Source: Haloarcula salinisoli (GTDB lineage Archaea; Halobacteriota; Halobacteria; Halobacteriales; Haloarculaceae). From it: a DNA stretch of 64,000 nt. The notes under the pieces are model-generated. The model was not told where the DNA came from and searched no databases. It worked only from the letters and a program-made list of their open reading frames with translations. The stretch is from the NCBI RefSeq assembly GCF_019599405.1, contig NZ_RKLQ01000005.1, positions 1 through 64,000 on the forward strand, written 5' to 3'. Within the stretch, counting starts at the first letter, position 1. Every line of letters starts with the position of its first letter. Shown here piece after piece: positions 34,718-64,000 of the stretch. Position numbers and translations under genes: made by a program.

Positions 34718-37324
34718 TTAGCGAAGAAATCCGAAGAGCTTGTAGTCGTGATCGGGGGTGTACCGCCGGAACAGGAGACTGTTCGTCAGCACCGACACCG
34801 ACGAGAACGCCATTGCTGCTGCAGCGAGCACGGGCTGGAGGAGGCCGAGCGACGCTAACGGAATCATCGCCGTGTTGTAACCGAGCGCCCACACGAGGTT
34901 CTGTTTGATCTTCTGGAGTGTCGCGTCTGAGATTCGGATCGCCTTTACCACGTCGAGCGGGTCGTCTCGCATCAGCGTGACGTCTGCAGCTTCGATGGCG
35001 ACGTCGGTGCCGGAGCCGATTGCTGTCCCGACGTGTGCGACCGCGAGTGCCGGAGCGTCGTTGACGCCGTCACCGACCATCATCGCCTGCCGGCCCTCGT
35101 CTTGAATACTGTCGACCGCGTTGGACTTGTCCTCAGGAAGGACTCCTGCGCGGACGTTCTTCGGGTCGATACCCACCTGTTTAGCGACCGCACGGGCAGT
35201 TCGCTCGTTGTCGCCCGTAATCATCATCACGTCAACTCCCCGCTCCTGGAGTGCTGTGACAGCCTGCTTGGAGCTTTCCTTCACTGTGTCGGCGTCGGCG
35301 ACCACACCCACGAGCTCCCCCTCGTAGGCGACCAGCATCGCCGTCTTCCCCTCGTTCTCGAGGCGTTCCATCGTCTCCTCAGCGGGAGAGGGGTCGATCC
35401 CGTTGTCCCGCAGCAGCTTGCGGTTGCCGACCAGCACCTCGCTGTCACCAATGACTGCTTTGATCCCGTGGCCCGGAACGTTCTCGAAGTCGTCAGGCTC
35501 AGTCACGTCCAGGCCGCGTTCTTCGGCCCCTTCGACGATTGCACGGGCGAGCGGGTGTTCGCTGCCGCTTTCAGCTATCGCCGCCAGTCGAAGCACATCA
35601 TCCTCTGAGAGGCGCTCACGGGTGCTGAGCTGTCCACCATCTGGGGTCGGCTCGCCACCGTCAGTCACCACATTTCCATCGCTATCAAAGACGACCACGT
35701 CGGTGAGTTCCATTTCCCCTTCGGTGAGTGTGCCCGTCTTGTCGAAGACGACTGTATCGACGTCTTTCGCTCGTTCGAGGATGTCACCGCCCTTGAACAG
35801 GACGCCGTTCTGGGCACCAATCGTCGTCCCGACCATCGTCGCTGCGGGCGTCGCCAGCCCCAGCGCACAGGGACAGGCGATGAGGATCGAGGACGCGAAG
35901 ACAATTATCGCGAACTCGAAGACTGAAACGGTCCCACCGACCGGGGCCGGGCCGCCAGCAACCTGACCCCACAGCGGGAGCCAGTCGACGAAGCCAGCGA
36001 GAGCCTCGGGGAACAGGAACCAGACGACACCCCAGAGAAGGGCGTTCGCGATGACCGCAGGCACGAAGTACGCGGAGATGCGGTCGGCGAGATTCTGGAT
36101 GTCGGGCTGGCGCGACTGGGCCTCCTTGACTGTCTGGACGATCTGTTGGAGGGCCGTGTCTTCTCCAACCTTCGTCGCCTCCACGACAAGGACGCCGTTC
36201 TCGTTAATCGTCGAGCCGACGACCTCATCGCCCTCCTCTTTCTCGACAGGCACAGATTCGCCAGTGACCATTGACTCGTCGACGGCAGACTGACCGTCGA
36301 CAACGACACCGTCTGTGGGAATCTTCTCACCTGGACGAATTTTCATCCGGTCACCAGTTGTGACCTCTTCAAGCGGAACTTCTTCTTCACTGCCGTCCTC
36401 GTGGACAATGGTCGCCGTTTCGGCTTCCATTTCGAGGAGCTTTCGGAGGGCCTCACCCGCTTGGCCCTTCGACCGAGCTTCGAGATAGTTACCCAACGTG
36501 ATGAACACGAGGATGAGGGCTGCCGTGTCGAAATAAAGTCCACCTGCAATGAGTTCAGCAAGGACTGCCACAGAGTATAGATAGGCCGTTGTTGAACCGA
36601 TCGCAATCAGCACGTCCATATTGGCGCGGCCATTCTTCACGATCGCCTTGTACGAGTTCTTATAGAACGGCCAGCCGAGGATCGCCTGTACCGGCGTGGC
36701 GAGGAGGAACTCAACCCAGCCAAGTTCCACACCGAAGACGGCTTCAGGGACGATCGCGCCACCGAGCAGATAATTGTCGATGAGGAAGAAGAGCAACGGT
36801 GCCGATAACACTGCCCCAAAGAGGGTCAACCTGAGTTGCTTCCGAGTTTCGGCTTGACGGGCGGCATCTCGTGCGTCCTGGCCCGACTCTTCGTCGGCAC
36901 CATCTTCGCGGACGGGCGAGTAGCCAGCCTCCTCGATAGCATCGTACAGCGCACCAATAGATACTTCCGCAGGATTGTAGGTGACCTGTGCTTCGTCGGT
37001 TGCGTAATTGACCTCCGCATTAACGACGCCCGGAATATTTTCAAGAGCGGTTTGGTTGGTCTCGGCGCAGTTGGCACAGGTCATATCGGAGATGGCAATC
37101 GTTACCGTCTCAGAGACTGCGCCGTACCCGGCCTCGTCGATCGCGTCGTAGATTTCTTTGAGCGATACCTCTTCAGGGTCGTAGGTGACGGAACCCTCGT
37201 CGGTGGCGAAGTTCGCATCCGCCTCCGATACCCCGTCGAGCGATTCGAGAGTGTCCTGGATCGTCGCCGAACAGTTGGCGCAGGACATTCCCGTGATATC
37301 AAGATGGATTGTTTGGCTTGTCAT
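34718..37324 (-). CDS. copA: copper-exporting P1B-1 ATPase with two HMA domains
   Basis: An 868-residue pump. Two N-terminal HMA domains carry C-A-N-C at 15-18 and 83-86. Then come the actuator T-G-E-S, the membrane C-P-C (about 484-486, in [11 protein letters not shown]) that defines Cu(I)/Ag(I) pumps, D-K-T-G-T (about 527), S-E-H-P in the nucleotide domain, and G-D-G-V-N-D near the end. It exports cytosolic Cu(I) using ATP. An Lrp/TRASH gene lies just upstream on the same strand (94 bases) and a copper chaperone gene diverges from that regulator. The promoter should be within GTTCTACTATACGGGG before the ATG. Confidence 0.95.
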
Positions 37325-45021: not shown

Positions 45022-45153
45022 GAATCGCGCGGACCACTCCGAGACAACGGCCAACCGTTGTCTTTGAAGCTTCGCTACGCTGGTCCTGCTGTACAGTTTC
45101 AGTGGGGAAGATTCAGGGGGCCAGCGGATCCACCTCTACAGAGAATATGGGCT

Positions 45154-47436
45154 ATGGACGACCACAAAGATACAAATGAGAATCCCCCTGGAGGGGAACA
45201 CCAGCAGGACGACAGCAGTCACCAGCACGAACACGGCGAGCAGGATGAATCGGACGCCGAGTCGGACGAGCAGCGGGTAGAACAGGAGCTACTGGAAGAA
45301 GAGGCACACCCTGCTGCGGAGAGTGAGACGGTGCTCGACGAGCAGCACGAGCACGCTGGACACGAGGGCGAAGGACACGACCACGGTTCCCATGAGGGCC
45401 ACGGTGAGGGGCATGGCGGGATGCACGAGGGCCACGAGCAGATGTTCCGCCGGCGCTTCTTCGTCTCGACGCTCCTGTCGATCCCAGTCCTGCTATACAG
45501 CGAAATGCTGCAGGAGTGGCTCGGGTTCTCCGTCCCCGCGTTCCCGGGCAGCGAGTGGATCAACCCCGTCTTCGCGGTCATCGTCTTCGCGTACGGTGGG
45601 ATGCCGTTCCTCCAGATGGCGGTGCCGGAGCTGAAAGACCGGTCGCCGGGGATGATGACGTTGATCTCGATGGCGATCACCGTCGCGTTCGTCTACAGTC
45701 TCGCGAGCGTGGTCTTCCCGACGCAGTCTGCGTTTTTCTGGGAGCTCGTCACGCTGATCGACATCATGCTGCTGGGCCACTGGATCGAGATGCGGTCGGT
45801 CCGGCGGGCCTCCAGCGCGGTCGACGAACTGGCGAAACTGATGCCAGACACCGCCGAGCGTATTACCGACGACGGAGAAACCGAGGAGGTTCCCGTCAGG
45901 GAGCTCTCGGAAGGCGATCTCGTGCTCGTCCGGCCGGGCGCAAGTGTCCCTGCTGACGGCACCGTCGAGGAAGGTGATTCGGACGTCAACGAGTCGATGA
46001 TCACTGGCGAGTCCAAGCCCGTCTCGAAGGAGCCTGGCGACGAGGTCATCGGCGGCACCATCAACGGCGATGGTAGTCTCCGCGTCCGTGTTGGCGCGAC
46101 GGGCGAGGAGACGACGCTGGCGGGCATCATGCGTCTCGTCGAGGAAGCCCAGCAGAGCAAGTCCAAGACGCAGGTACTGGCCGACCGGGCGGCAGGCTGG
46201 CTGTTCTACGTCGCGCTCGGGGCGGCAGTCGTGACGGCGATTGCGTGGACCGTCGCGGTCTCGTTCGACGCGACCGTCATCGAGCGAGTCGTGACGGTGC
46301 TCGTCATCGCCTGCCCGCACGCCCTCGGGCTCGCCATTCCGCTGGTCGTCGCGATCAACACGTCGCTCGCCGCTCGCAACGGGATGCTCGTTCGCGACCG
46401 CATCGCGATGGAAGACGCACGGAATCTGGACGCGATCATCTTCGACAAGACAGGGACGCTTACCGAGGGCGAACACGGCGTCGTGGATATGGCGACCGTC
46501 AACGGCGTCGACGAGGACGACGCGCTCGGGCTGGCGGCAGCCGTCGAGAGTGACTCCGAACACATGATCGCGCGAGCGATTCGCGAGGCCGCCGACGAGC
46601 GAGACCTAACTACTCCCGACGCGACCGCCTTCGAGGCGATCAAAGGGCGAGGGGTTCGCGCAAACGTCGATGGAAACGAGGTGTACGTCGGTGGGCCGAA
46701 CCTGTTGACCCAGCTCGATAGCGAGATCCCCGCCCATCTCCAGCGCTTCGCTGACGAGGCGGGACAGAACGCTCAAACGGTGGTGTATCTCGTTCGTGAC
46801 AGTGAGTTGATCGCCGCGTTCGCGATGGCCGACGTAATCCGTGAAGAGAGTTTCCGCGTCGTCGACGCCCTCCACGATCTGGGAATCGAAGTGGCGATGC
46901 TGACTGGCGACTCCCAGGACGTCGCCAACGCTGTCGCTGACGAACTGGGCATCGACACGGTGTTCGCCGAGGTCCTCCCCGAAGACAAAGACGAGAAAGT
47001 CCAGGAACTCCAAGACCAGGGGAAGCTCGTGGGGATGGTTGGTGACGGTGTAAACGATGCGCCGGCGCTGACGCGAGCCGACGTCGGGATCGCCATCGGG
47101 AGCGGCACCGACGTCGCCGTCCAGTCGGCGGATGTCATTCTCGTGCAGAACAACCCGATGGATGTAGTGCGACTCGTGAAACTCAGTAAGGCGAGCTACC
47201 GGAAGATGCAGGAGAACATCGTCTGGGCCGCCGGCTACAACGTGTTCGCGATTCCGCTCGCAGCAGGCGTGTTGGCACCGATCGGGATTCTGCTGTCTCC
47301 CGCTGTGGGTGCGCTTCTGATGTCGTTGAGTACAGTAATCGTCGCCATCAACGCGCAACTGCTCCGCCGGGTGGATCTATCCATCCCCGAGCTTCCAGGA
47401 GTGACACCATCCACTAGCACCCAAACTGCAGACTGA
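45154..47436 (+). CDS. copB: copper-translocating P1B-3-type ATPase (CPH motif) with His-rich N-terminus
   Basis: A 760-residue pump. The first 100 residues are His/Asp/Glu-rich ([17 protein letters not shown]) in place of HMA domains. T-G-E-S marks the actuator, C-P-H is at about 387-389 in the metal helix, D-K-T-G-T at about 431-435, S-E-H-M in the nucleotide domain, and G-D-G-V-N-D near the end. CPH plus a His-rich tail defines CopB-type copper or silver pumps. The ATG at 45154 is preferred; upstream in-frame sequence is unlike pump N-termini. Confidence 0.93.
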
Positions 47437-51481: not shown

Positions 51482-51946
51482 ATGAGCAACAGCACTCCCG
51501 ATTCGAACGCGTCGTCCACGACCACACTTCGTAAACTCGCTTCACACGCCAAGCTACGAGCATCCCAGGCGGCCGCGAACCCCACATTCCGGCGGGCAGT
51601 CCAGTTCTCGTTAACCCTGTTCCTGTTTAGCGGGACTGCGATGGCCCAAACAACGATTGGAGATACCTACTGTGGGACCAGCGTCGAGGGGCTCCTCGAT
51701 GTCACGTTCGGGGCCCTTGTCGGGCTTGGACTCCCAGCGACGATGTTCTACGTCGGTCGCTCTGGACTCTCGTATATGCGAGCGTCGGGTAATCCCAACC
51801 AGCAAAATGAGGCCCGCAAGGACCTCATTCTGTCGATGACTGGCTTTGGGGTAATTCTCCTGGCGATTGTCTCGCCAGAACTCATTGACAAATTCGCTAG
51901 TGCAGCGAGTGTCCAGTTCAGCGACTGCGTGAAACCACTCAGCTAA
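51482..51946 (+). CDS. VirB2/TrbC-like pilin candidate
   Basis: A 154-residue protein. A long signal region (basic residues about 17-42, then F-S-L-T-L-F-L-F-S-G-T-A-M-A-Q ending at about 56) precedes a mature chain of about 98 residues with two membrane helices (about 68-94 and 118-138) joined by a short polar loop (N-P-N-Q-Q-N-E-A-R). Two Cys flank the helices. This is the layout of VirB2/TrbC conjugative pilins and of the small pilin-like subunits of archaeal DNA-transfer machines. The identity is structural, not by direct similarity. First gene of the operon. Confidence 0.68.
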   Translation: MSNSTPDSNASSTTTLRKLASHAKLRASQAAANPTFRRAVQFSLTLFLFSGTAMAQTTIGDTYCGTSVEGLLDVTFGALVGLGLPATMFYVGRSGLSYMRASGNPNQQNEARKDLILSMTGFGVILLAIVSPELIDKFASAASVQFSDCVKPLS

Positions 51947-51958
51947 TCATAAGCACGT

Positions 51959-53674
51959 ATGTCTGTTCCACTCCGGGTGTTGGTGCCGGTGTTGGTCTGT
52001 CTGGTAGTGACGACGCCGACAGTCGTTGCTTCGGGAGTGGGACTACAGACTGAGCGAGTATCGCCCACCGTCCAGCAGCAAGCGGAGAATCGGACAGCGA
52101 ACGGAACACCGACGCTCCGAGCAGCCCAACAGCCGGCTGCTAATCGCACCGAGAGTGCCCACTCACGCCCACCGAACGTGACGTCCTGGAACGACCGATA
52201 TGTCGAGGGCTACACCACCGGCGGGATCAATTTCTCTGCCCGGCCATCACACGTGAGTTGGGAGTCGTGCTGTCGGTTGCAGTCCTCGACAGAAATCGAC
52301 GGGCCCCTGTTCAGTGAGGTCTATATCGAGATTTTCTCGATTACGCCCTCGACCGTTGTCCATTCCCGAGCGGGCACGCAGCGCTACGGAAGTCCAAACG
52401 GCACCGCCCGGGCGGTGTCGAATTTCCGCATCAATGACCGGCTGCTCAATTCCACAACGAGTCCAGTCGGGGCGAATCTCACCAGTCTTGGTGGTCAGGT
52501 CGTATTACTGGCCAACGGGACTGTCGTGGACACCTCGTCGTCGTTGACACCCGAACTCCAGTTCCGTGGCCTATCGGGTACAACGAATCTGACGGTCCGG
52601 CTGACACTCACGGGGATCGTACAACCCGCCGACAACGAAGTTCGGTCGTACACGATGACGGTGACTGACTCGGAAACGGTCCGAGTCCAGGAACTCTCCG
52701 GACTCGGGGTGTCAGGCCAACTGGCCTGGCATAACGAGACTGGACCAACTCGTAACGAGAGCGCGCTGACCCTGTCTCTGCCTGGACTGTGGCAGCGAGT
52801 GCAGTTCGACAACGGACTGCGTGCCCACAGCCAGTGGTCCTACTACACCCGCAACGGCGATGGGTGGACCGAGTGGGAGACGACGGCTACGCAACCTGGC
52901 GCCGTCGCGCCGGAATGGCAGCCGATTGCCCCCTACGAAGTGCATGCGGTGCCGGTGACTGCGGGTCCGGAACTCACCTACGAGTGGCTCGACGCAACGG
53001 ATACTGCGTCGACGAACTCCCGTGACGTGCCCGTCGACCTCACATATCCAGAGGCAACGATGGCACCCCAGCCGCCGCTCCCACCGGAAATCGAGTTAGA
53101 CCGAGCGGGCAACTCGACGACTTCAAACCGATTCACGCTCCATAGTTCCCGGTCGCTTCGTGGCGCCGGCGAGTTCACCGTCTATGGTCTCGTCCGTGGT
53201 CGGTCAGTGAATGTCTCGGTGAACACCGCTGATCCGCCCACTGCCCACGAAGTGAACCTCACCGCGGAGGTACTGAACACGAGTGACGCCGGAACTCGAC
53301 TGCGGGTGTCAGCACGCCCAAGAGCAGGTGCGCCGCTCGAACAGGGGCGGATTATCCTCACGACTGAGGAGACGCGTGTTACCCGGCAGTTACGGCCGGC
53401 CGATGATGGGACTGTGGTCGTCGAACTGGATCAATCCGGGGTACGGAGAGGGAGACTGCGATACGAGCCGCCTGCTCCGTGGTGGAATCAGTCCCGGACG
53501 TATCCAACGCTGGCGACGAACGGGTCGTTCATCGACACCGCGAATCTGCCCGCCATTCGCGAGATTATCGATTTCATCGTGATTACTGGGCTGGTGTTCC
53601 TGCCGCTGTATCTGCTGCTGTACGGCTTTGACATCCTCACCAGAGGGAAATTTCTCGGCTGGTACGAACCATGA
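51959..53674 (+). CDS. secreted, C-terminally anchored surface protein of the conjugation operon
   Basis: A 571-residue protein. Signal peptide about 1-25, a Ser/Thr/Asn-rich, beta-type ectodomain with many N-x-S/T glycosylation sites, and one C-terminal membrane helix (I-V-I-T-G-L-V-F-L-P-L-Y-L-L-L, about 540-556) with a short basic cytoplasmic end. It is likely to be exposed on the cell surface, perhaps in adhesion or pilus assembly. No family was recognised. It starts 12 bases after the pilin gene, and its stop overlaps the next gene by ATGA. Confidence 0.7.
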   Translation: MSVPLRVLVPVLVCLVVTTPTVVASGVGLQTERVSPTVQQQAENRTANGTPTLRAAQQPAANRTESAHSRPPNVTSWNDRYVEGYTTGGINFSARPSHVSWESCCRLQSSTEIDGPLFSEVYIEIFSITPSTVVHSRAGTQRYGSPNGTARAVSNFRINDRLLNSTTSPVGANLTSLGGQVVLLANGTVVDTSSSLTPELQFRGLSGTTNLTVRLTLTGIVQPADNEVRSYTMTVTDSETVRVQELSGLGVSGQLAWHNETGPTRNESALTLSLPGLWQRVQFDNGLRAHSQWSYYTRNGDGWTEWETTATQPGAVAPEWQPIAPYEVHAVPVTAGPELTYEWLDATDTASTNSRDVPVDLTYPEATMAPQPPLPPEIELDRAGNSTTSNRFTLHSSRSLRGAGEFTVYGLVRGRSVNVSVNTADPPTAHEVNLTAEVLNTSDAGTRLRVSARPRAGAPLEQGRIILTTEETRVTRQLRPADDGTVVVELDQSGVRRGRLRYEPPAPWWNQSRTYPTLATNGSFIDTANLPAIREIIDFIVITGLVFLPLYLLLYGFDILTRGKFLGWYEP

Positions 53675-54567
53675 CACAGAACCCACACTCATACAGCGAC
53701 CGTATCGACCGACGAACAGCGCTGACCCTCCTCGGCGGTGGCCTTACCGCACTGGCGGGGTGTTCCAATTCCTCGTCCTCAGGGTCTCCAGCATCCCCAT
53801 CTAGCGGAGACAGTGCTGGTAGACAGTCCGGTACAGAAGGCTGGGTCCCGCCAGAAGAGCAGTCAGAGTATATCACTGACAGTAGCTTCGTGGTTGATGG
53901 TCTGGAGTTATCCTTGGAATTAGAGCTCCAGAACTCGGCGGATATCGTCACTCTAGATTTGTTGGATGCACGGGGCAATGAGTACACATTAGCATTTCCC
54001 AAACAGGATAAGGCTACACTCACCCTCGCTGATGGGGCCAACAATGAGTACAGCGAAGATTCGCCGGAAGTTGAGGCGATAACTTCTGGGGAAAATACCA
54101 TCGTCATCAACCTTACTGAGGAGACTGGCAAGGACGATGAACGGATTCACCTTCGGCTTGGCACCTCTGTAGAAGTCCAGCGGGTCACGTGGGGCGAATC
54201 AGTTGAAGGTGTAGATAAGCATGATTTAGTGATTGTCCTCAAAAACACTGGTCCACATCCTACTTCCCCAGGAATCATCCAGTACGCGAATGTCCCTGGT
54301 GACGATGCTTCCGGTCAGACACTATCGTCTGAGTTCTCGGTTATTAAACCAGACAAAACGGGAGCAGCAGTAATCCCTCTCGAGATATGGAAGGGAATAG
54401 GGTGTGGTGATGGCACAGAGCGGACCCTCGAATTTACTATTCCTTCGTTCTGGGCGAATACACTGAGAGTCTCCCAAACTGTTACATATTCTACTAGCGG
54501 CTCAGATTGCGGTTCGCTGACTGGCTCACCGACCGTCGCCAAATCAACCGATTCGAAGTCTGTGTAA
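53671..54567 (+). CDS. Tat lipoprotein of the conjugation operon
   Basis: A 298-residue protein. D-R-R-T-A-L-T-L-L-G-G-G near residues 14-25 and the lipobox L-A-G-C at about 27-30 mark a twin-arginine lipoprotein, followed by a Ser/Gly linker. The mature part is beta-rich (I-V-T-L-D-L-L-D-A-R-G-N and similar). Its codon use is AT-richer than its neighbours, suggesting later acquisition. Coupled by ATGA overlap to the preceding surface-protein gene. Possibly a surface component of the transfer channel; the family is unknown. Confidence 0.72.
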   Translation: MTQNPHSYSDRIDRRTALTLLGGGLTALAGCSNSSSSGSPASPSSGDSAGRQSGTEGWVPPEEQSEYITDSSFVVDGLELSLELELQNSADIVTLDLLDARGNEYTLAFPKQDKATLTLADGANNEYSEDSPEVEAITSGENTIVINLTEETGKDDERIHLRLGTSVEVQRVTWGESVEGVDKHDLVIVLKNTGPHPTSPGIIQYANVPGDDASGQTLSSEFSVIKPDKTGAAVIPLEIWKGIGCGDGTERTLEFTIPSFWANTLRVSQTVTYSTSGSDCGSLTGSPTVAKSTDSKSV

Positions 54568-54643
54568 TAATGAATCAAAGAATCCGATATATAAGATTCA
54601 GCGAATCACAGGCCTGCTGGTATAACAATGGGGAGGGTTACCG

Positions 54644-56497
54644 ATGAGTGAATTTGAGATATCTGAGTTCTTTGAACTCATTCAATATGAGGGGGGTAAT
54701 CAAGGCGGTAGTGGGGATGATAATGACGGAAATTCAGATGGTGGTGACGGCGGTTATGATGGGGGAAATCAAGGCGGTAGTGGAGACGGTGGTGGCGGAG
54801 GTGTTGATGTCAACGTCGATGTTCCGTCTGTGAATGATTTCATCAACGATTTTATCCCTGAATTCCTCAGGAAGTTAGTTGAGGATCTCAAAAACCAAGT
54901 ATTCACGGAGAGTGTACTCAAGAATCCTATCGAGGCTGGGATTGATGCGTTCCTCGAAGGACTAGCAACTGGCATTCAGAACGCGTTCAAGTCGTTCTTC
55001 AGAGCCCTCATCACGCCGTTAGTAGAAACGCCGGCACCTGAGGGAAACACTGTAGCAGGACCGGTCAAGATAGCGTTCCGTGGTGCGAGTAATGACCCCT
55101 GGGGGGCTCTTATTTCGAATCTCTATTTTGAGGGAATTGTCGGTCTGGCCCTCGGCCTTCAGTTCATCACACTAGCTGCCGTGGGCCTGCGGTACAAATC
55201 GATGGATCCAGTGGTCCGTAAGCAGGTCGGCCGACGTGTCGTGATGGCGTTCTTCGCGATTTTCCTGTGGTTGCCGGTTGCGTCTCTCGCAACGCAATTC
55301 TTCGATATTATCGCACGACAAATAGTGTTCGCGGGCTCGGCGTACGATATTGACGAAGTCGTAACCACCCTCTATTCCATCACCGAAATAGGGGTTGCAA
55401 ACCCGGGACTGCTTGCGATACTCGTTCTTGTCGGACTCTATGTGTACCTGAAGGCGATATTCATAGCGATAGTCCGCTGGATACTGATTATACTGCTAAC
55501 GCTGTGTATGCCGCTCGTGGCGGCCTTCTGGCCACTAGAAGTCTGGCCATTTAATCGGTTCTCTGGACTTGCCAAGCAAGTTGCAGGGGCATATCCTGGT
55601 GCTTTAGCCGGGGGTATCCCAGCAGCCGTCCTCTTCCGCATTAGCTTCGAAACAGATGCTTGGGGACTCCCTGACGCACTCACCGCGTTCGTTGCTCTAG
55701 CCACGATATACCTGGCAGCGAAGGCTCAGAAGGAGATGATCGTGCGGAGCAGTCGGACTGCGATGCGAGTGAGTGAACAGACTCTCGGTGGAGCCAAACA
55801 GTCTGTGAAGACACCGGCTGCAGTTGGCGCCGGTGCTGTGACCGCCGGCGCCGGTGTAGCGGCTGGGGCTGGGGGAGCACAGGCCGCGGCCGGCGGCTTC
55901 AGCGCACTGGGGAACGCTGCAAAGGGTCGCATCGGTCGGGCAGCCTACGGCGCCATGAACCTCCATCGCGGTCTGTCGAACGCTAAATTCGGGGGCTCAA
56001 ACGGCTCTGGCTCATCTGAGACCGGAGGAGTATCTGGTCCAGACCCAGCTGACCCAGGCCCTGAGAACGAAATCCGAACTGCCTCAACCTCGATGTCGGA
56101 CCCCGGCGGTTCTCAGTCGCCTGAACCCGCTGGACCTCCCGCTCAAGGCCGTCTGCCTGACACCGGGCGAGGTTCGGCAGCGGAATCAGACGCCCCCGAC
56201 CTTGGCGACACTGTCCAGTACTGGGACCTGCTCGATGAGGGAACCACTGTTGAGGACGGTTCGCCCCCTGATGATGCCCAGCAGGTCCCCTCGGATGTCG
56301 ACAGTGCTGCTGGTCAAGTAGACAGTGCTGACGATGACGACCTCGCAGCTGGGGCCGCTCCGACCACCGATGCTGGCGACGATGGTGACTCGCCTGCAAC
56401 GGGTGGGGCTGCCAACGCCAAAGACTTGTTCGCGACCGATGACGACGTGCTCGGCCCCGATGTGTACCGCCCGCGAGACGACTCACAGAACATCTAA
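54644..56497 (+). CDS. polytopic membrane protein, VirB6/TrbL-like channel candidate
   Basis: A 617-residue protein. Residues 10-65 are Gly/Asp/Asn repeats. About eight membrane helices follow between residues 160 and 370 (for example L-V-G-L-Y-V-Y-L-K-A-I-F-I-A-I-V, and a pair with M-P-L-V-A-A-F-W-P-L-E). The C-terminal 220 residues are Ala/Gly-rich then acidic and disordered. Size, helix count, position before VirB4 and the soluble tail fit VirB6/TrbL inner-membrane channel proteins. A GGGGAGG sequence precedes the ATG by about seven bases, a good ribosome-binding site. Confidence 0.72.
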   Translation: MSEFEISEFFELIQYEGGNQGGSGDDNDGNSDGGDGGYDGGNQGGSGDGGGGGVDVNVDVPSVNDFINDFIPEFLRKLVEDLKNQVFTESVLKNPIEAGIDAFLEGLATGIQNAFKSFFRALITPLVETPAPEGNTVAGPVKIAFRGASNDPWGALISNLYFEGIVGLALGLQFITLAAVGLRYKSMDPVVRKQVGRRVVMAFFAIFLWLPVASLATQFFDIIARQIVFAGSAYDIDEVVTTLYSITEIGVANPGLLAILVLVGLYVYLKAIFIAIVRWILIILLTLCMPLVAAFWPLEVWPFNRFSGLAKQVAGAYPGALAGGIPAAVLFRISFETDAWGLPDALTAFVALATIYLAAKAQKEMIVRSSRTAMRVSEQTLGGAKQSVKTPAAVGAGAVTAGAGVAAGAGGAQAAAGGFSALGNAAKGRIGRAAYGAMNLHRGLSNAKFGGSNGSGSSETGGVSGPDPADPGPENEIRTASTSMSDPGGSQSPEPAGPPAQGRLPDTGRGSAAESDAPDLGDTVQYWDLLDEGTTVEDGSPPDDAQQVPSDVDSAAGQVDSADDDDLAAGAAPTTDAGDDGDSPATGGAANAKDLFATDDDVLGPDVYRPRDDSQNI

Positions 56498-56505
56498 TCA
56501 GACTC

Positions 56506-59500
56506 ATGGCGCAAGCACAACAGAACCCACAGCAGTACAGTACGAACATCATTCACGGCTCACTCGGTGACACGACTGAGTTCTGGGGTGGGTACACGGG
56601 CGGTGAATTGCTCCTGTTTGCAGCCCCGGTAATCCTATTTGTCCTCGTCCTCGGAATGCCGTTCGTCCCTGCCAGTGCGACACTCCCGGCACTCCTTGGA
56701 CTGATTCTGGCCGAAGGAGGGCTGTTCACGCTGCGAGCAGTTCGGCCGAACTACTACCGGCTCACTGAATGGCTCCGTGTCCGAGCCTTCTGGCGGGTCA
56801 AAGAAGAGGAACATACCGTCGAAGACGGGACTCAGGACACTCGGAATGCCACCCGGCTGAAACGCATCATGCCCCACGGAATCGAACGGGCCGACGGCGC
56901 CTACGTCGGGGCCGTCGAGGTCCAGCCAGCCAACATGGCCCTCGAAGACGGTGAGCAGTGGCAGAACGCTGTCCAGTCCCTGACTGAGATGGTTAACTCA
57001 TTGGAAGGTACCGCTAAGATCTACGTCACGACGCGGGATGCTGACAACACGGAGCATATCGAGGCCCACAAAGAGCGGCTCGAGGATGCCGATACACAGA
57101 ACCACTCCATCTTCCGGGGGGTCCTCATGGAGTGGCTCAACCGACACACCGACGATGATGGCGAAATCGTCGCCGAGACCGAGATGCAACGCGAATACTA
57201 CATCATCGTCACGGTCACCGATGCTGAGATTGAGGACCTCGTCAGTGATGACGCGTCTGTTGCGAACTACCTCGAAGACCTTCCGGTGGTGGGTGAGTTG
57301 GTCTCCAGTGTCGGGAGCAACGGACTGACCGCCGGGGAGCGAGAGGAACACAAGGCCAAGAAACTCCACGACCGACTCTCCAGAGTCGCTCGCTCGGTCG
57401 ACAGTCTCTATCGTTGTCGGAGCGAGCCCGTATCGTCGTACAAGCTCGCCCAGCTTACCAAGGACTACTGGGCCTGTGAGCCACGGCAGTTCGGTGATAT
57501 CGAGCAGGCAGCCAATATCTCGCCGATTACGTACTCCGATAGAGAGCTAGCTCGCGCCAGTGAGATGCTCGAGAACCATGCGGCTGCCGAAGGAACGGAT
57601 AGCGAGACGAGAGGTATCGATGAAGCTGTGGAGGCTCCGCACGGTGTATCGAATCCGGGCCACGAACACCAGTCGCTGGTCGCACCCACGGCCATCGACT
57701 GGGCGGAGGATCATGCACTCATCGACCAGGAGACCTACGCTCGAACGTTCTGGGTCGAAACCTTCCCCGAAGAACCGTCGAATGGGCTGCTCGAACGCCT
57801 GCTGCTGGATACGGACCTCCGTGCCGACGTGTCTATTCACATCGATCCGTACGACACGCAGGAGGCACTGGCGGTCATGGAGAACTGGATTTCTTCCCTG
57901 CAGGTCGTCCAAGATGACCAGGGCCAGATTCAGGCGGAAGACATCCAGCAAGATGTGAACCAGGCCAAGTTCATCCGGCAGATGGTCCGGCGTAACCACA
58001 CGTCGCTATTCCGCGCCGGCGTGTTCGTCCGTATCACGGCTGACAGTAAAGAGCAACTCCGAAGGCGGACGAACCAGCTCGAAAGCGTGCTCCGGGACTC
58101 GCCCGCGAACTGTGGCATCAAGCGGGCCACCCGCCGACAAGAGGACGGTCTGGTGACTGTCTCGCCAATTGGGGCGAACGAGCTCGGGAAGGATCGCCTC
58201 TCGTCGATGACCAGCGAAGCCCTGGGGTCGCTCTTCCCGTTCTCGTCGAACTACCTTCGCATGGAGAACGGTATCGAGTACGGAACCCATGGGCACAACA
58301 ACTCCTCGTTGCTGATCGACCCATGGGACCTCGAAACCGGTCACTCTGAGCTCGTGACGGGGATGCCTGGGGGCGGGAAAACCCACGGCACACAAGCTCG
58401 GGCGATGCGGATGATGAAGAAACGGCCTGACGTCAAGCAGGTCTACATCGACCCGGTCGGAGATATGCGCGGCAGCGCGAAAATGCTCGACGCGAAGACG
58501 ATCACCGTCAGCGGTGAGACGCCGCTCAATCCATGCGAGATGCACCCGACGCCGGAGCATATCCTGGAGCAATCTCCAGATATGCAACCCGTCGCAGCGA
58601 AGAAAGACGAAGTCTACGGGGTCATTGAGAACTTCCTCGAAGCCCGTGACGTCCACCTCGAAATGCACAGTGGGCTGATCACGTTCATCATCGACACGAT
58701 CTTTGCGGAATCCGATATCGTGCCCGATGATCCGTCGACGCACACACCCGAGAACTCGCCCAACATGCAGGACTTCCTGGACCTGCTGGACCGACTGCAG
58801 GACAGCCCCGGGATGTTCCCCGGCGCGACCACGGACTCCTCGCGTCAGAAAATCCGGGAATATGCTGATGAGCTCTCGGTCGCGCTGCATCCGTTCCGTG
58901 AGGGCAGTACGTACGGGAATCTCTCCCAGGCGTCGGACATGAAGCTCATTGACGATTCGAGCAAGGCGGTCTATCTCGACCTCCAGCAGGTCGAAGGCAC
59001 TGGCGATGGTCTGGGCAAACAGTCGTTCATCATGCAGCTGCTGCTGTCGACACTGTACCAGCAGGCCAAGAACATGGATTCGAAGGTGGAGATCATCATC
59101 GACGAGGCCCACTACCTATTCAACGACGACGCCAATCTGGCGTTCCTGAACCAAATTGCTCGCCACCAGCGACACGCCGGGCTACGGCTGGTGATGCTCT
59201 CCCAGACGCTCCAGGAGTTCTACGACAACGGTGTCGCCGAAGAGATAGCGGGGATGTGTCCGATAATGGTCCACCATCGCGAGCCGGACCTAGGCGACCA
59301 CACGGCCAAGAAGGCCGGCCTGACCAGCGAACAGCAGTACTACATCCAGACAGCCGAGGCTGGCAAAGAGTCCATCGGCGACGGTCAGGGGTATTCTCAA
59401 GCTCTCGTTCGCGTCGACGAGCACGGCGACTACCCGCTGACTATCCGGACGTCGTGGGAGGAAAAGCGTGTCATCGATCTCGATGCTCACGGTCGCGATG

Positions 59501-59970
59501 TCCTCGACGAACTTGCAGATCAGGTATCTCCGAAGGTCCAGCAGTTCGAACAGTTCGTCTATTCGGAAGCGATGGAACATGAACTGACGCAGGTTCATGG
59601 CCTCCCGCCAGAACAAGCTGAGCGCCTATTGAACGGGCTGAGCGAGGACGAACTGGTAGAGATAGCGTCCGTAGCACTCGACCGTCAGATGACTTCGAAA
59701 GCGGTCGCCGACGGCGGTGCATCAACTGCCGTTGACGAACCCCCATCTGACCCTCAGCAACGAACTTCGTCCTCGACCGACGGCGTGCTGGAACTGACAG
59801 AGCCCGAGACTCCCGACGGGGCGACAGGGGACAATCCACAGCCATCAGAGAGACAGCCTGAGCCTGGTGTCCCGGGTGATGACGAGCGAACGGTGACGTT
59901 CGATCCTGACGGCGACAGCATCTGGCGTACCGAAGACAAGACGACTGCCAGCGGTGATGCCAATGAGTAA
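56506..59970 (+). CDS. VirB4/TraC-type conjugation ATPase
   Basis: A 1154-residue protein. Two N-terminal helices (about 30-70) resemble a VirB3-like segment fused to VirB4. The ATPase part has Walker A G-M-P-G-G-G-K-T-H (about 618-627), Walker B I-I-I-D-E-A-H (D866 and E867), and R-H-Q-R-H-A-G-L-R-L-V-M-L-S-Q-T, the sensor/arginine region of the VirB4/HerA class. The last 140 residues are a disordered acidic tail. VirB4 powers pilus assembly and substrate transfer. The stop overlaps a mini-gene by eight bases. Confidence 0.88.
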   Translation: MAQAQQNPQQYSTNIIHGSLGDTTEFWGGYTGGELLLFAAPVILFVLVLGMPFVPASATLPALLGLILAEGGLFTLRAVRPNYYRLTEWLRVRAFWRVKEEEHTVEDGTQDTRNATRLKRIMPHGIERADGAYVGAVEVQPANMALEDGEQWQNAVQSLTEMVNSLEGTAKIYVTTRDADNTEHIEAHKERLEDADTQNHSIFRGVLMEWLNRHTDDDGEIVAETEMQREYYIIVTVTDAEIEDLVSDDASVANYLEDLPVVGELVSSVGSNGLTAGEREEHKAKKLHDRLSRVARSVDSLYRCRSEPVSSYKLAQLTKDYWACEPRQFGDIEQAANISPITYSDRELARASEMLENHAAAEGTDSETRGIDEAVEAPHGVSNPGHEHQSLVAPTAIDWAEDHALIDQETYARTFWVETFPEEPSNGLLERLLLDTDLRADVSIHIDPYDTQEALAVMENWISSLQVVQDDQGQIQAEDIQQDVNQAKFIRQMVRRNHTSLFRAGVFVRITADSKEQLRRRTNQLESVLRDSPANCGIKRATRRQEDGLVTVSPIGANELGKDRLSSMTSEALGSLFPFSSNYLRMENGIEYGTHGHNNSSLLIDPWDLETGHSELVTGMPGGGKTHGTQARAMRMMKKRPDVKQVYIDPVGDMRGSAKMLDAKTITVSGETPLNPCEMHPTPEHILEQSPDMQPVAAKKDEVYGVIENFLEARDVHLEMHSGLITFIIDTIFAESDIVPDDPSTHTPENSPNMQDFLDLLDRLQDSPGMFPGATTDSSRQKIREYADELSVALHPFREGSTYGNLSQASDMKLIDDSSKAVYLDLQQVEGTGDGLGKQSFIMQLLLSTLYQQAKNMDSKVEIIIDEAHYLFNDDANLAFLNQIARHQRHAGLRLVMLSQTLQEFYDNGVAEEIAGMCPIMVHHREPDLGDHTAKKAGLTSEQQYYIQTAEAGKESIGDGQGYSQALVRVDEHGDYPLTIRTSWEEKRVIDLDAHGRDVLDELADQVSPKVQQFEQFVYSEAMEHELTQVHGLPPEQAERLLNGLSEDELVEIASVALDRQMTSKAVADGGASTAVDEPPSDPQQRTSSSTDGVLELTEPETPDGATGDNPQPSERQPEPGVPGDDERTVTFDPDGDSIWRTEDKTTASGDANE

Positions 59971-60091
59971 GCGAGATTCGACGGTTCAGCCGGGAGAGGC
60001 GGCTGCCAAACCTGTAGCACCGACTGTAGTCACCGACGCCAAGACGCGTAATCGAAAGACCGGGACTACCCAGGAGTGTGGTGAGCGATGA
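59963..60091 (+). CDS. 42-residue mini-protein, coupled on both sides
   Basis: A short frame starts at ATG 59963 inside the last codons of VirB4 (eight-base overlap) and ends at 60091, overlapping the next ATG (ATGA). The product is basic (M-S-K-R-D-S-T-V-Q-P-G at the start, K-T-R-N-R-K-T-G near the end) with a single Cys. The double overlap argues that it is translated. It could be a real small protein or only a translational relay between its neighbours. No family is known. Confidence 0.55.
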   Translation: MSKRDSTVQPGEAAAKPVAPTVVTDAKTRNRKTGTTQECGER

Positions 60092-60675
60092 AGGATACGG
60101 CATTTCAGATACATACAACCGAAGAGAACAAACGATGGCTGGAACACCGTGCCGAGGAACTGGACTGCTCGCTATCGGAGTACGTCCATGAGTTGATCCA
60201 GAAACACATCGACATCGTCAGCGACGACAAAGAGTACCCATACGATGACTCTGAACGATTGCAGACAATCGTCGACGACGTCTACGACGAGACAGACATC
60301 CTGTTACGGGAGTTCTGGGGCGAGAGAGCCGGCGAAACCGCGGCGGAATATCAGCCAGGTCGCCTCCATCTTCTTGTGCTCTGGCGGCTGGTCGCGGGTG
60401 AATACTCGAACGCGGAACGCCAGTTTGCGATGCGACTGGCCCAGAACTACATTGGCGAGGACCTAAATCTGGTTCCCAACGGGCCCCAGACCGGAGAGAA
60501 GTGGAGAGACACGACTGTAACTGGAGAAGTCCATCCAGCCCGGTACAGGAGCCGCTCTTCTGGGAGTGAGAGAGGGCAGGCGGCAGACAAACAGGGCAGA
60601 GACGCCGACACGGACGAGACACTGGGTCCAGCCCAGTTCATGACTGAGGGCACTGGTGGTGATGCCGATGAGTGA
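60088..60675 (+). CDS. RHH-like DNA-binding protein, first of three paralogues
   Basis: A 195-residue protein. The N-terminal 45 residues fit a ribbon-helix-helix (F-Q-I-H-T-T-E-E-N-K-R-W-L, then C-S-L-S-E-Y-V-H-E-L-I-Q-K-H-I). A second module (L-H-L-L-V-L-W-R-L-V-A-G-E-Y-S-N-A-E-R) near residues 93-111 recurs in the next two genes. The C-terminus is disordered. RHH proteins act as relaxosome accessories (TraY/MbeC-like) that bind the transfer origin and help the relaxase. Coupled to both neighbours. Confidence 0.7.
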   Translation: MKDTAFQIHTTEENKRWLEHRAEELDCSLSEYVHELIQKHIDIVSDDKEYPYDDSERLQTIVDDVYDETDILLREFWGERAGETAAEYQPGRLHLLVLWRLVAGEYSNAERQFAMRLAQNYIGEDLNLVPNGPQTGEKWRDTTVTGEVHPARYRSRSSGSERGQAADKQGRDADTDETLGPAQFMTEGTGGDADE

Positions 60676-61057
60676 CGTGAATCCAATTTCGGTACATCCT
60701 GACAGTGCAGCACAGAAACAGCAAATCGTCTCCCAGGCACGCAAACACGACCAGAGTGTCTCGGAGTACTGTCTGATGGCGATAGAACAGCGGATCGCTC
60801 GTGAAACGGAAGCCGAGCGCCTTGATGACCTAGATATAGATAGCCAGTTAGATGACCTGAAAACGGATATTACCGCGGAGATATCTACTGCCACAGATAT
60901 CGATACTCGACAGGAATCGTTGTATGGTATTGCATTGTGGGAACTATTGGGAAGCGAACACTCTCAAGAGGAACGCAGCCAAGCAGTGAAGGAGGCTGCA
61001 GGCACGCTTGAGGACGACCTCGCGAATCTGGCTGCAAAGGATGAGGGTGATGACTAA
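60668..61057 (+). CDS. RHH-like DNA-binding protein, second of three paralogues
   Basis: A 129-residue protein. RHH-like N-terminus (I-S-V-H-P-D-S-A-A-Q-K, then Q-S-V-S-E-Y-C-L-M-A-I-E-Q-R-I), an acidic linker, and the shared module S-L-Y-G-I-A-L-W-E-L-L-G-S-E-H-S-Q-E-E-R near residue 85. The ATG at 60668 overlaps the preceding stop by eight bases, as in the VirB4/mini-gene junction. Probable relaxosome accessory; the role is inferred. Confidence 0.7.
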   Translation: MSDVNPISVHPDSAAQKQQIVSQARKHDQSVSEYCLMAIEQRIARETEAERLDDLDIDSQLDDLKTDITAEISTATDIDTRQESLYGIALWELLGSEHSQEERSQAVKEAAGTLEDDLANLAAKDEGDD

Positions 61058-61557
61058 TGGGGCGTGATTCGAGCATCCAAGTCTATCTCTCTGAAGACCG
61101 GAAGGAGTGGCTCACAGACCAAGCTGAGGCTGCAGATCAATCCCGCTCAGAGTACTGCCGTCAAGTGATAACGGAGCATATCAACGAAGTCCAAAACGAA
61201 CAGCAATACAGACGGTATGGAGTTGACCAGCAGATAGAGCTAGTTCTCGATGAGATTCATGATGATACTATGACTCTCCTTTCCAACTTTCAGTCTGAAA
61301 CCGGGACGACATTGGAGCGCATCCAACGCGTCCGGACAATATACGTCATCGCCCTCTGGCACCTTCTCGAAAGTGATTATCCACTCTCTGAGCGAAAAGC
61401 CGCACTGAAACGCGCTTCGGAGTATGCTGATCGTCATCCGGGCGATGACCCTGTTTTGTCCTCTGTGGTTCCATCTGGCCAGGCTAACACCGACGAATCG
61501 GGTGCAGAGCAAACAGAAGCGACGCTAGCGGACACGACTGGAGCGGATAGCGAATGA
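61057..61557 (+). CDS. RHH-like DNA-binding protein, third of three paralogues
   Basis: A 166-residue protein. The RHH pattern is clearest here (S-I-Q-V-Y-L-S-E-D-R-K-E-W-L, then Q-S-R-S-E-Y-C-R-Q-V-I-T-E-H-I), followed by the shared module I-Y-V-I-A-L-W-H-L-L-E-S-D-Y-P-L-S-E-R near residue 90. It begins with a TAATG overlap and ends with an ATGA overlap with the relaxase. The position directly before the relaxase strengthens the accessory role. Confidence 0.72.
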   Translation: MGRDSSIQVYLSEDRKEWLTDQAEAADQSRSEYCRQVITEHINEVQNEQQYRRYGVDQQIELVLDEIHDDTMTLLSNFQSETGTTLERIQRVRTIYVIALWHLLESDYPLSERKAALKRASEYADRHPGDDPVLSSVVPSGQANTDESGAEQTEATLADTTGADSE

Positions 61558-62342
61558 TGCTCAAAACCGATTTCAGAGAGAGCGGGGCTGGGAACCTTGT
61601 CGACTATATCCAGCGGGACCGTTCGCAAGACGCAGTCGAAACCGTCGATCTCCGAAATCAAACTGGTCGACAGCTCTCCGAGACAGATGTCGACAGGTTC
61701 GTCGAGAAGAGTCGGGAGTTTCAGTTCCAACGCCATATGATCGTCTCGCCGGACCCAGAGGGGCAATATACGCCCGAAGAGGTGAGTGCCAATACTCGGG
61801 AGGTAATGAACCGAGAGTTTGGCCAGCGACCGACCACAGAATACGTCTATGCGGTCCACCGTGACACCGAATTCCCCCATGCACATGTGGCTTTGACGGG
61901 GCGAGAGTCGGAACTGGAGATGGACCGTGCTGAAATCGAACGTCTTCGGGAGCGGGCCTCGACCGTCTACAATGAACCAGACCGTGCCAGAGATGCCACC
62001 CAAGCCAGCACGGACACAGCTGCCCAAACACCGTCACAGACGGTACCCGATGAGACTCGAGAAGAATTGCATGAGCGCGAACTCTCGCTGGAAGAGCACC
62101 CGGAAAAAGACGTTCTACAGGACAGAGCACGCTCCCAGGAGACATCGCCTTCCACACCCTCACCAGAGAACAAACGCGACAAATCCCGCGCTCAGGAGCG
62201 ACAGTCGGAGTCAGTGCTAAGCCGTGAAGCTGACTCAACCGCTGCAGAAGACAACGAGCGGGAACGAGAATTAGAACCTGAGGCAGAGTCAGAACGAGAA
62301 CCGGAACCTGAGCGGGACATGGACCGGACGATGGGCGGGTGA
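61554..62342 (+). CDS. HUH-motif relaxase candidate (MOB-type)
   Basis: A 262-residue protein. Residues 1-115 hold a relaxase-like core: N-L-V-D-Y-I-Q-R-D near 14-22 (candidate nucleophile Y18), R-H-M-I-V-S-P at 60-66 and H-R-D-T-E-F-P-H-A-H at 102-111, matching motif III H-x-D...H-x-H of MOBP-type relaxases, which cut one strand at oriT. Residues about 125-262 are charged, coiled and disordered (many E/R/S), perhaps for contact with the coupling protein. It is coupled to the RHH genes upstream, and the VirD4-like gene starts six bases after its stop. Confidence 0.78.
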   Translation: MMLKTDFRESGAGNLVDYIQRDRSQDAVETVDLRNQTGRQLSETDVDRFVEKSREFQFQRHMIVSPDPEGQYTPEEVSANTREVMNREFGQRPTTEYVYAVHRDTEFPHAHVALTGRESELEMDRAEIERLRERASTVYNEPDRARDATQASTDTAAQTPSQTVPDETREELHERELSLEEHPEKDVLQDRARSQETSPSTPSPENKRDKSRAQERQSESVLSREADSTAAEDNERERELEPEAESEREPEPERDMDRTMGG

Positions 62343-62348
62343 TACACT

Positions 62349-64000
62349 ATGAGCTCGAGTTCTGATTCCTCACACACTCCACCCGGACAACAGTCCGCAG
62401 AGGTGCCCCAGAGTCTCAAGTACGACGATGTCACCTCCTTCCTGTGGGCCGCGGTAATGCTGCTGTTCCCACCTATGTGGGTCGATAGCGACAAGCCGCT
62501 GCACAAACGGTTCTGGGCCTGGCGCTACATCTACAGCGGTTTCTTCCTCGTCAGCGCGATTTTCTTTGCCCCTGAACTACTTGCCGGTGACTACGACTGG
62601 TTGTTCTTGTTCCCGTTTGCCCATGTCGTCGCTGCGTTGTCGCTCGCTGGGCTCTTCGCTGGCTATCCGATGCCTGGCCTCTCGCTCCCGTTGGTGAGCT
62701 ATCAGACCACCGTTGTACTCTACGGTACAGGGATTGTCCTTACGCTCTCTGGCGATGCACTCCGCCGGACGTCGCCGGCGATGTTCGCTCGTAACCCCTG
62801 GGACTCCGAGGACGGTGAATCAGTCGTCCCGCTCGAAGAGGTCGCGAACAAGGACGACGATGCCGACACGCCGCCGACCCTCGATCAGGATATCTCGACG
62901 GCTGTCATCGGTGAGACGGGGAGTGGGAAAACGACGATGATGCGGCTGCTAGCCTACCAGTTCCCCTACGACCGCGATACTGCAGTCATCGCTCACGACA
63001 CTGGCGAAGAGTTCCAGCAGTTCTACACGGACCTCGGGTTCGACGTCAAGCGTATCAGTGCGACCGACAGTGACGTTGTCTGGAATCTGTTCCAAGATGC
63101 TGAGAGTGAATCGGAGTTTCGCGAGGTAGCTGGCGCTATCTTCGGGGAGCCCGACGGCCACAATCCGTTCCATCGGCCAGCGAAGCAGACATTCCAGGAT
63201 ATGCTCATGTACCTCCATCTGGAGGCCCAGCGAAACAACCGCCGGCAGGACCTCTGTCATACAGATATCGTCTCGCTACTCGATCAGGGCCACTACGCAC
63301 TCAAAGAGGCCCTCGACGAGTACGACCGACTCGAGTCTGGCCACATCGATCCTGACAAGGGAAAGGGAGCGCAGAATGTCTACCAGACACTGCGGGAAAA
63401 CGTTCGTCCGGTCTTCGTCGACGACTTCGCCGACTACGGCCAGTTCTCCCTGGAAGAGTATATCAAAAACCCTGATGGGCGCGTGTTGATCATCGACTCC
63501 GACCCGTCGCGAATGGAAACGCTCGGGCCGATGTATCAACTGCTGCTCGACTGGTCGATTCGGTATGCGATGAATTCGCCGAACCCGACGGTCCACATCC
63601 TCGACGAAATCGATGCGCTGCCGTCGCTTACACAGGTGACGAACCTGACGGCCCGTGGACGCAAAAACAAGGCCCGCGCGCTGATCGGTGTTCAGACCAT
63701 CGGCCAGCTCGAAGATACGTACAGTACTATCTCCGGCATCGTGGGCAACTGTCCACAGGGCGTCTACTTCGGTCCCGGTGACGCCGAGTCGACTGAATTC
63801 GTCCTCGATGAACTCGGCGAACGACGACAGCTGGACCGCACTGAAATGGTCGCGATGAGTCACCAGGGGCGCAACGAGTCGGCTCGCTCCCAGTCCCGTG
63901 ATACGTACAAGGAGAAGGACAAGACACCGATCACGTCGGGTCTCCTACGCGACTTTGAACCTGGGGAGTGCATCGTTGTCTCTCGAACGACGTGGTGGCA
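62349..64000 (+). CDS. VirD4/TraD-type coupling protein, partial (runs off the right edge)
   Basis: The open frame runs from ATG 62349 to the window end (550 full codons, no stop). Three or four membrane helices occupy about residues 32-140. Walker A G-E-T-G-S-G-K-T-T starts at residue 188 and Walker B H-I-L-D-E-I-D near 415-421 (D419). L-T-A-R-G-R-K-N-K-A-R and I-G-V-Q-T-I-G-Q follow, as in T4SS coupling proteins. It would bring the relaxase-DNA complex to the channel. The start is six bases after the relaxase stop. The C-terminal end is missing. Confidence 0.88.
   Translation, partial: MSSSSDSSHTPPGQQSAEVPQSLKYDDVTSFLWAAVMLLFPPMWVDSDKPLHKRFWAWRYIYSGFFLVSAIFFAPELLAGDYDWLFLFPFAHVVAALSLAGLFAGYPMPGLSLPLVSYQTTVVLYGTGIVLTLSGDALRRTSPAMFARNPWDSEDGESVVPLEEVANKDDDADTPPTLDQDISTAVIGETGSGKTTMMRLLAYQFPYDRDTAVIAHDTGEEFQQFYTDLGFDVKRISATDSDVVWNLFQDAESESEFREVAGAIFGEPDGHNPFHRPAKQTFQDMLMYLHLEAQRNNRRQDLCHTDIVSLLDQGHYALKEALDEYDRLESGHIDPDKGKGAQNVYQTLRENVRPVFVDDFADYGQFSLEEYIKNPDGRVLIIDSDPSRMETLGPMYQLLLDWSIRYAMNSPNPTVHILDEIDALPSLTQVTNLTARGRKNKARALIGVQTIGQLEDTYSTISGIVGNCPQGVYFGPGDAESTEFVLDELGERRQLDRTEMVAMSHQGRNESARSQSRDTYKEKDKTPITSGLLRDFEPGECIVVSRTTWW

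Follow-up and report, generated by a model that had tools for sequence, protein, structure and literature searches.

Do haloarchaea move plasmids as many bacteria do, one strand at a time, with a relaxase to cut the strand and a coupling protein to deliver it? Contact-dependent passage of plasmids in archaea is an open question, and papers of 2019, 2023, and 2025 describe archaeal conjugative elements without recognised relaxases, which may use some other mechanism (PMC9905601, PMC6563490). The question is raised anew by a cluster of genes in Haloarcula salinisoli, found in bases 1-64000 of contig C5 (NZ_RKLQ01000005.1; 212,318 bp), the stretch of 64,000 nucleotides called here the window. An earlier note on this DNA took the cluster to be a single operon for a conjugation machine that includes a relaxase. 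We consider it very probable that the locus forms the transfer region of a haloarchaeal plasmid able to transmit itself, by a process like bacterial single-strand conjugation. The computation provides the identity and order of the parts, the motifs and predicted fold of a relaxase, a conserved site resembling an origin of transfer (oriT), and a circular replicon.

The gene cluster and its replicon

Since its first and last 114 bp are the same, C5 must be a circular extrachromosomal replicon, 212,204 bp in length. Its plus strand carries ten genes in series from 51482 to 64970, all of them open, and sequence searches place the closest relatives of the operon in Haloarcula. Genes for pilin-like, VirB6-like, VirB4, ribbon-helix-helix (RHH), HUH, and VirD4-type proteins lie on this strand at the place given in the earlier note. 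The extent of the cluster needed amendment: the final gene, encoding the type IV coupling protein (T4CP), runs 970 bp past the end of the window, and two conserved envelope proteins had not been listed. The genes were also said to follow one another with overlaps. This is true of seven of the nine junctions, if one includes those no more than 12 bp wide, but gaps of 76 bp (5' of the VirB6-like gene) and 117 bp (5' of the first RHH gene) interrupt the series, and because of them a single operon, as the sequence suggests, is likely but unproven. About 20 other Haloarcula loci have this gene order too, and by that comparison the cluster is not the product of chance. Relaxase, T4CP, and VirB4 are encoded together, the gene content that defines a conjugative plasmid.

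A relaxase and its partners

The HUH protein (61554..62342, plus strand; 262 aa) consists of a domain of about 145 aa and a charged tail. It matches PF03432 with 35 bits, above the cut-off of 24.6, and the same family matches 19/19 relaxase relatives at E 0.01 or better. The match to the NCBIfam model MobP1 (1.6e-6) falls below that model's own cut-off. Relaxase motifs are found at Y18 (motif I), at HMIVS beginning at residue 61 (motif II), and at H102..H109xH111 (motif III). Y18, R60, S65, and H102 are invariant across 19 sequences; Y18 and H102 are so in alignments A1 and A3, and H109 nearly so in A1. The third histidine of motif III is glutamine in one lineage of the RHH-relaxase-T4CP cassette discussed below.

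The AlphaFold2 model built from the alignment (mean pLDDT 82, pTM 0.78) predicts a relaxase fold. With this model, Foldseek gave a sole match below 0.001, to the minimal relaxase MobA of R1162 (2.6e-4), and VIA-align matched the two over 138 residues (3.6 A) with a Z of 11.4. Relaxases occupy the first 15 ranks of the VIA-align comparison, followed by geminivirus Rep (also an HUH protein) at rank 16 and F TraI at rank 17; Z declines from 11.4 to 8.2 over these ranks, and the first unrelated fold stands at 7.2. The earlier note had allowed that the HUH protein might fold unlike relaxases. The model matches relaxases instead, and on profile, motif triad, and predicted fold together we class the protein as a predicted relaxase of MOBP type (PF03432, MobP1-like). 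In another family of the same phylum, outside the class sampled here, PF03432 also matched at two loci (L021, L025; G643, G394), once above the cut-off and once below it; these could be other archaeal relaxases or contamination.

Just upstream, on the same strand, lie genes for three RHH proteins that weakly resemble the relaxosome accessory proteins NikA and MbpA. The first (60088..60675; NikA-like E 0.057), a candidate accessory protein, was found solely in the window plasmid (L003) and one near relative (L041). The second (60656..61057; NikA-like E 0.041, MbpA 0.023) is conserved in relatives, and the third (61057..61557; NikA-like E 3.1e-5) adjoins the relaxase in nearly every cassette.

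The T4CP (873 aa; 62349..64970, plus strand, the window part ending at 64000) has transmembrane segments at its N terminus and a Walker A motif at residue 188. It matches PF10412 TrwB_AAD_bind at E 8e-33 and PF12696 TraG-D_C at 1e-11, as against 9e-4 for DUF87/HerA, and among PDB sequences its profile reaches TrwB at E 8e-23 and HerA-type entries at just about 0.005. These scores rule out the contrary outcome that the earlier note had raised, a HerA/FtsK ATPase of repair or virus packaging. No viral contigs bearing T4CP relatives were found. By profile, the coupling protein is of the TrwB/VirD4 type, and with the PF03432 match and predicted fold of its neighbour it bears out the proposal of a relaxase-containing conjugation system in an archaeon, in which transfer itself would follow from the parts. 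The T4CPs of the Haloarcula loci, as seen in the DNA alignment, end in a conserved -FM tail (e.g., ASDFM; C5 64950-64970), possibly an interaction tag.

The proposed pore

The remaining five genes, also on the plus strand, would supply the pore. The VirB2-like pilin (51482..51946; 154 aa, two hydrophobic helices) matches PF18895 T4SS_pilin at E 7.7e-5, just below the cut-off; the same family matches 12/12 members of the pilin family, the best at 4.4e-9. It also matches NF045849, the NCBIfam model for a pilin-like protein of a mycoplasma integrative and conjugative element (ICE), at 2.7e-4. The VirB6/TrbL-like polytopic membrane protein (54644..56497; 617 aa, five hydrophobic segments) matches PF19590 TrbL_3 at E 0.002, and a member of its family does so at 7.1e-14. 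Judged from these family-level matches, the system has both a pilin and a VirB6 channel protein. The VirB4 ATPase (56506..59970; 1154 aa) matches the NCBIfam conjugal VirB4 models NF045971 (1.3e-46) and NF045975 (3.7e-34, residues 92-910) as well as TIGR00929 (1.3e-10), with Walker A at 619 and Walker B at 863; phmmer gave no match to it among PDB sequences. Its two N-terminal transmembrane segments possibly represent a VirB3-like fusion.

Between the pilin and VirB6-like genes lie those of two envelope proteins that are conserved members of the pore block in relatives. P2 (51959..53674; 571 aa), with an N-terminal signal or transmembrane segment and a C-terminal one, has no match in Pfam or NCBIfam; its predicted structure was poor (pLDDT 41) and was not used. 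P3 (53671..54567; 298 aa) appears from its sequence to be a Tat/lipobox (LAGC) lipoprotein, belongs to no known family, and keeps its position in relatives. Family scans of the ten proteins found no homologue of VirB7, VirB8, VirB9, VirB10, or VirB11. For an archaeon, with a single membrane and no murein, it is fair to call the set complete.

Might the machine nonetheless do without a relaxase? A system like Ced or pNOB8 would move double-stranded DNA or DNA made by HerA/NurA, and the HUH protein would be a replication initiator or a bystander. The papers cited above, in which archaeal conjugative plasmids are said to have no relaxase that can be recognised (PMC9905601, PMC6563490), and the relaxase-less occurrence of the same pore block in other haloarchaea speak for this, but in the Haloarcula loci the HUH gene overlaps an RHH gene and abuts the T4CP gene, and its product has a predicted relaxase fold and occurs together with a MOBP-like nick site. 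Also, the CedB and CedD models score just 0.024 and 0.0019 against the VirB4, as opposed to 1e-46 for the conjugal model. We find such a system most improbable, and DNA import of the Ced/Ted type is ruled out by the CedB score and the presence of a relaxase.

A candidate origin of transfer

Beyond the window, just 3' of the T4CP gene, lies a candidate oriT (C5:65165-65280, plus strand). In an alignment of 22 loci, the T4CP stop is followed by two direct repeats like AAATCGCAAGACGGCGG and then by CTTTATCTTGCC. In the window plasmid, the repeats are CGCAAGAC, at 65165 and 65230, and the nick word, TTTATCTTG^C, occupies 65270-65279. The word TTTAYCTTGY occurs in 23/25 full loci, once per locus, on the operon strand and 277-358 bp past the T4CP stop; these 23 instances in 564 kb compare with about 1.3 expected from a first-order Markov model. 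The two-part oriT pattern matched 18 times in 382 Halobacteria genomes, and its reversed control not at all. Of the 18 matches, 16 are on operon contigs, near the relaxase, and those at G051:C20 and G106:C1:958787 are next to T4CP remnants. The hairpin words GAGCGNNAGCGA and GAGCGNAGCGA do not occur in the window.

The same architecture is found upstream of the cassette in Haladaptatus and Natronococcus (AAATCGCCAGACGGCGG or AAACCGCAAGACGGCG about 45 bp 5' of TTTANCTTGCC) and, less exactly, in others; the relaxases of these distant cassettes are about 36-39% identical to that of the window. Several cassette lineages gave no such nick word, so the oriT-like site is not universal. Within Haloarcula, conservation of the site is in part a matter of kinship, and the argument for a candidate oriT draws more strength from cassettes in other families and from the uniqueness of the site in whole genomes.

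Perhaps the word is instead a promoter or operator, its TTTA standing in for a TATA box, and the true oriT is elsewhere. Sites of this type do lie about 60-90 bp ahead of the RHH gene start in several mobilizable cassettes. In the full systems, however, the site comes after the T4CP gene rather than ahead of the RHH genes, and no conserved gene follows it directly, and yet the two-part site is kept; moreover, the CTTGYC half is as conserved as the TTTA half and close to the MOBP nick consensus. We think a regulatory role unlikely to be the explanation and regard the site as a candidate oriT with a MOBP-like nick word. MOBP relaxases cut at (C/T)ATCCTG(C/T) and become attached to the 5' end that the cut creates (PMC3772185). 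In the window plasmid, the cut would by analogy fall between 65278 and 65279.

From these parts, we infer how the DNA may be nicked and with which polarity its strand may move, how the RHH proteins may bind, and how the pore may assemble and transfer proceed. The RHH proteins would bind the repeats just 3' of the T4CP gene, and the MOBP-like relaxase would nick the operon coding strand at TTTATCTTG^CC by means of Y18 and stay on the 5' end. The TrwB-like T4CP would pass the relaxase-DNA complex to a pore across the single membrane, built from VirB4, the VirB2-like pilin, the VirB6-like protein, and the two haloarchaeal envelope proteins. If the cut is MOBP-like, the strand would exit 5' end first, so that the bases downstream of the T4CP gene would enter first and the transfer genes last.

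Several observations weigh against this account. For a relaxase, the domain is unusually short, and the relaxase profile found no match among PDB sequences. The window's pilin and VirB6-like protein, taken singly, score below curated cut-offs. The conserved TA(T/C)CTTG(C/T) is one base off the MOBP consensus (TATCTTG for TATCCTG), the inverted repeat that usually adjoins nic shows no convincing conservation (mean score 5.0, as against 4.4 in shuffles), and the exact nick word is missing in two Haloarcula loci (L077, L078).

One might also suppose that the secretion system has decayed, or now secretes protein, and no longer moves DNA. Such a fate is suggested elsewhere by split VirB4 genes at two loci of one relative (L074, L075) and by T4CP remnants with orphan oriT-like sites. 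Here, however, none of the ten genes is interrupted, the oriT-like site is conserved along with the catalytic motifs, and the nearest relative keeps the full set of ten (VirB4 95% identical). We regard the loss of DNA transfer as highly unlikely.

Distribution and modularity

The earlier note had proposed looking for the same gene order in other haloarchaeal plasmids, and there it proved to be conserved: in H. marismortui pNG500, H. pelagica, H. hispanica N601 pHH126, and Haloarcula spp. JP-L23 and CBA1115, in about ten further genomes of the window's genus, and at about nine loci of other named species. The relaxase profile finds 33/391 Halobacteria genomes, including 17/24 in the window's genus. 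For a pattern scan of genome contigs, alignment A1 of the relaxase proved too diverse, and that of the T4CP took its place. Full relaxase-type operons also lie on contigs of 0.49, 0.55, and 3.48 Mb (G084:C1, L042; G083:C3, L044; G106:C1, L043, respectively), and because these contigs are so big, integrated (ICE-like) forms or large replicons may exist.

Outside these genera, about 30 more genomes encode VirB4 relatives of 47-50% identity. At such loci, 12/12 of those examined (L029-L040) keep the order pilin-P2-P3-VirB6-VirB4, P2 included, and the relaxase cassette was found at none of the 12. Where these loci were read (e.g., L029:12417-16635), VirB4 is followed by a protein of about 380 aa without known family and a T4CP-like ATPase of about 1000-1070 aa, and often by a primase-like open reading frame (ORF) as well. 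In the VirB4 tree, all relaxase-linked sequences fall on one side of one branch (support 100/100), with one state change. With relaxase-less VirB4s among the distant sequences as well, gain of the relaxase cassette is the simpler reading, though the root of the tree is not secure.

The converse arrangement, RHH-relaxase-T4CP without pore genes, is found on plasmids of Haladaptatus, Haloarcula sinaiiensis, Halobacterium, Haloarcula sp. JP-L23, Halorussus, and Halomarina. In gene content, this is the layout of mobilizable plasmids with their own T4CP. A full operon and a lone cassette are found together in JP-L23 and in H. sinaiiensis; in the latter, pHsi55 carries the cassette alone and resides beside an operon plasmid of 139,649 bp.

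A structured element in the predicted leading region

Past the candidate oriT, the plus strand of C5 carries repeats of a structured noncoding element, beginning at 65457 (65457-65533, 66484, 68730, 72370). The element is about 150 bp long and occurs in one to six copies, always in the orientation of the operon. Its best match overlies no annotated feature in any of 13 plasmids, and a 103-aa ORF over it was judged spurious, the frame being broken in a relative. RNAalifold pairs 41 columns, ten of them with double changes, and the covariation term is small. No known RNA family matched at gathering score; the single match (E 0.19) is not to the element but to the opposite strand of the pilin gene.

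The element is present in most relaxase-type loci tested and in 0/12 relaxase-less loci. It is absent from the stretch of L054, but the contig of that locus carries copies in L055; L078 shows none. It occurs in Haloarcula near relaxase and T4CP genes, with one plasmid match in Halorientalis, and solitary copies sit with T4CP remnants in L049-L051. A gene for an SOSS-B/RPA-like OB-fold protein lies in the same region of pNG500, pHH126, and CBA1115 unnamed4; leading regions in bacteria often carry ssb (PMC11541004).

A 77-bp form of the repeated element was considered as the oriT itself and set aside, since the nick word and its repeats lie between the element and the T4CP gene and the element is multi-copy; its absence from other relaxase cassettes further weakened the case. 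Our guess is that it serves as a single-strand promoter or origin. Other cassette lineages (L014:15391-15526 and 18860-18919; L060, L017, L016, L019) have a direct-repeat noncoding element of their own near the cassette, often hairpin-forming and unrelated in sequence to that of Haloarcula.

Taken together, the results permit a broader proposal, which we put forward tentatively and with more doubt than trust: that conjugation in haloarchaea is single-stranded, driven by a relaxase, and begun at a defined oriT; that it was gained when an RHH-relaxase-T4CP cassette, perhaps bacterial in origin, replaced the relaxase-less cassette of an archaeal pore block; that cassette-only plasmids are mobilized by this system; and that the structured element works on the single strand as it enters, much as ssi/Frpo would in bacteria.

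Relation to known systems

A system of this kind has already been noted. In archaea, the search of Guglielmini et al. (2011) found a single conjugative plasmid, pNG500, and a single ICE, an Aciduliprofundum element; in the passages concerned, pNG500 has one sentence with an in silico call, without oriT or cassette analysis (PMC3158045). That plasmid has the order pilin-P2-P3-VirB6-VirB4-RHH-RHH-relaxase-T4CP (T4CP 75% and relaxase domain 70% identical), and it shares the oriT-like site and the repeated element. The window plasmid is larger, has three RHH genes instead of two, and encodes a T4CP with a longer tail. What is new is the oriT candidate, the modularity of the pore block with a single relaxase-linked VirB4 clade, the lone cassettes, and the structured element in the predicted leading region. 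The literature searched (open-licence PMC papers) made no mention of the oriT, of the cassette swap, or of lone cassettes. MOBP domains have been counted in the plasmidome of a lake rich in halobacteria, and public annotation now labels some of these proteins 'relaxase'.

With bacterial MOBP systems (RP4, Ti VirD2) and MobA of R1162, the window system shares relaxase motifs and predicted fold, RHH genes, a TrwB-type T4CP, and a nick word one base off. Unlike them, its relaxase is minimal, without helicase or primase domain, there is no outer-membrane core or murein enzyme, and the oriT candidate comes after the T4CP gene. The VirB4 and pilin best match models from CD1110 and the Mbov ICE, of the Gram-positive/mycoplasma type IV secretion systems (MPF_FATA), but they score below those equivalog cut-offs, and the haloarchaeal P2 and P3 are additional. 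Ced/Ted and pNOB8/pT33-3 share VirB4 and, in the case of Ced, VirB6- and VirB2-like parts (PMC9905601, PMC12857230). They differ in having no recognised relaxase, and Ced is chromosomal and imports DNA.

The relaxase plasmids break the 'no relaxase' rule in hosts that can be cultured (H. hispanica, H. marismortui). With an exact predicted nick site, a catalytic residue, and a minimal mobilizable cassette to work on, the passage of archaeal plasmids can be tested directly, and a transfer tool for halophiles could result. Standard plasmid typing evidently misses likely mobility in haloarchaea, as 22/24 plasmid records in PLSDB matched by the relaxase are typed 'non-mobilizable'.

Other features of the replicon

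Genes resembling those of heavy-metal P-type ATPases, as read from the sequence, lie near the operon (window 45058-47436 and 34718-37324) and are perhaps metal-resistance cargo. The region of C5 from about 109000 to 125000 appears, judging by eye from ORFs and repeats, to bear a CRISPR array region and cas-like genes.

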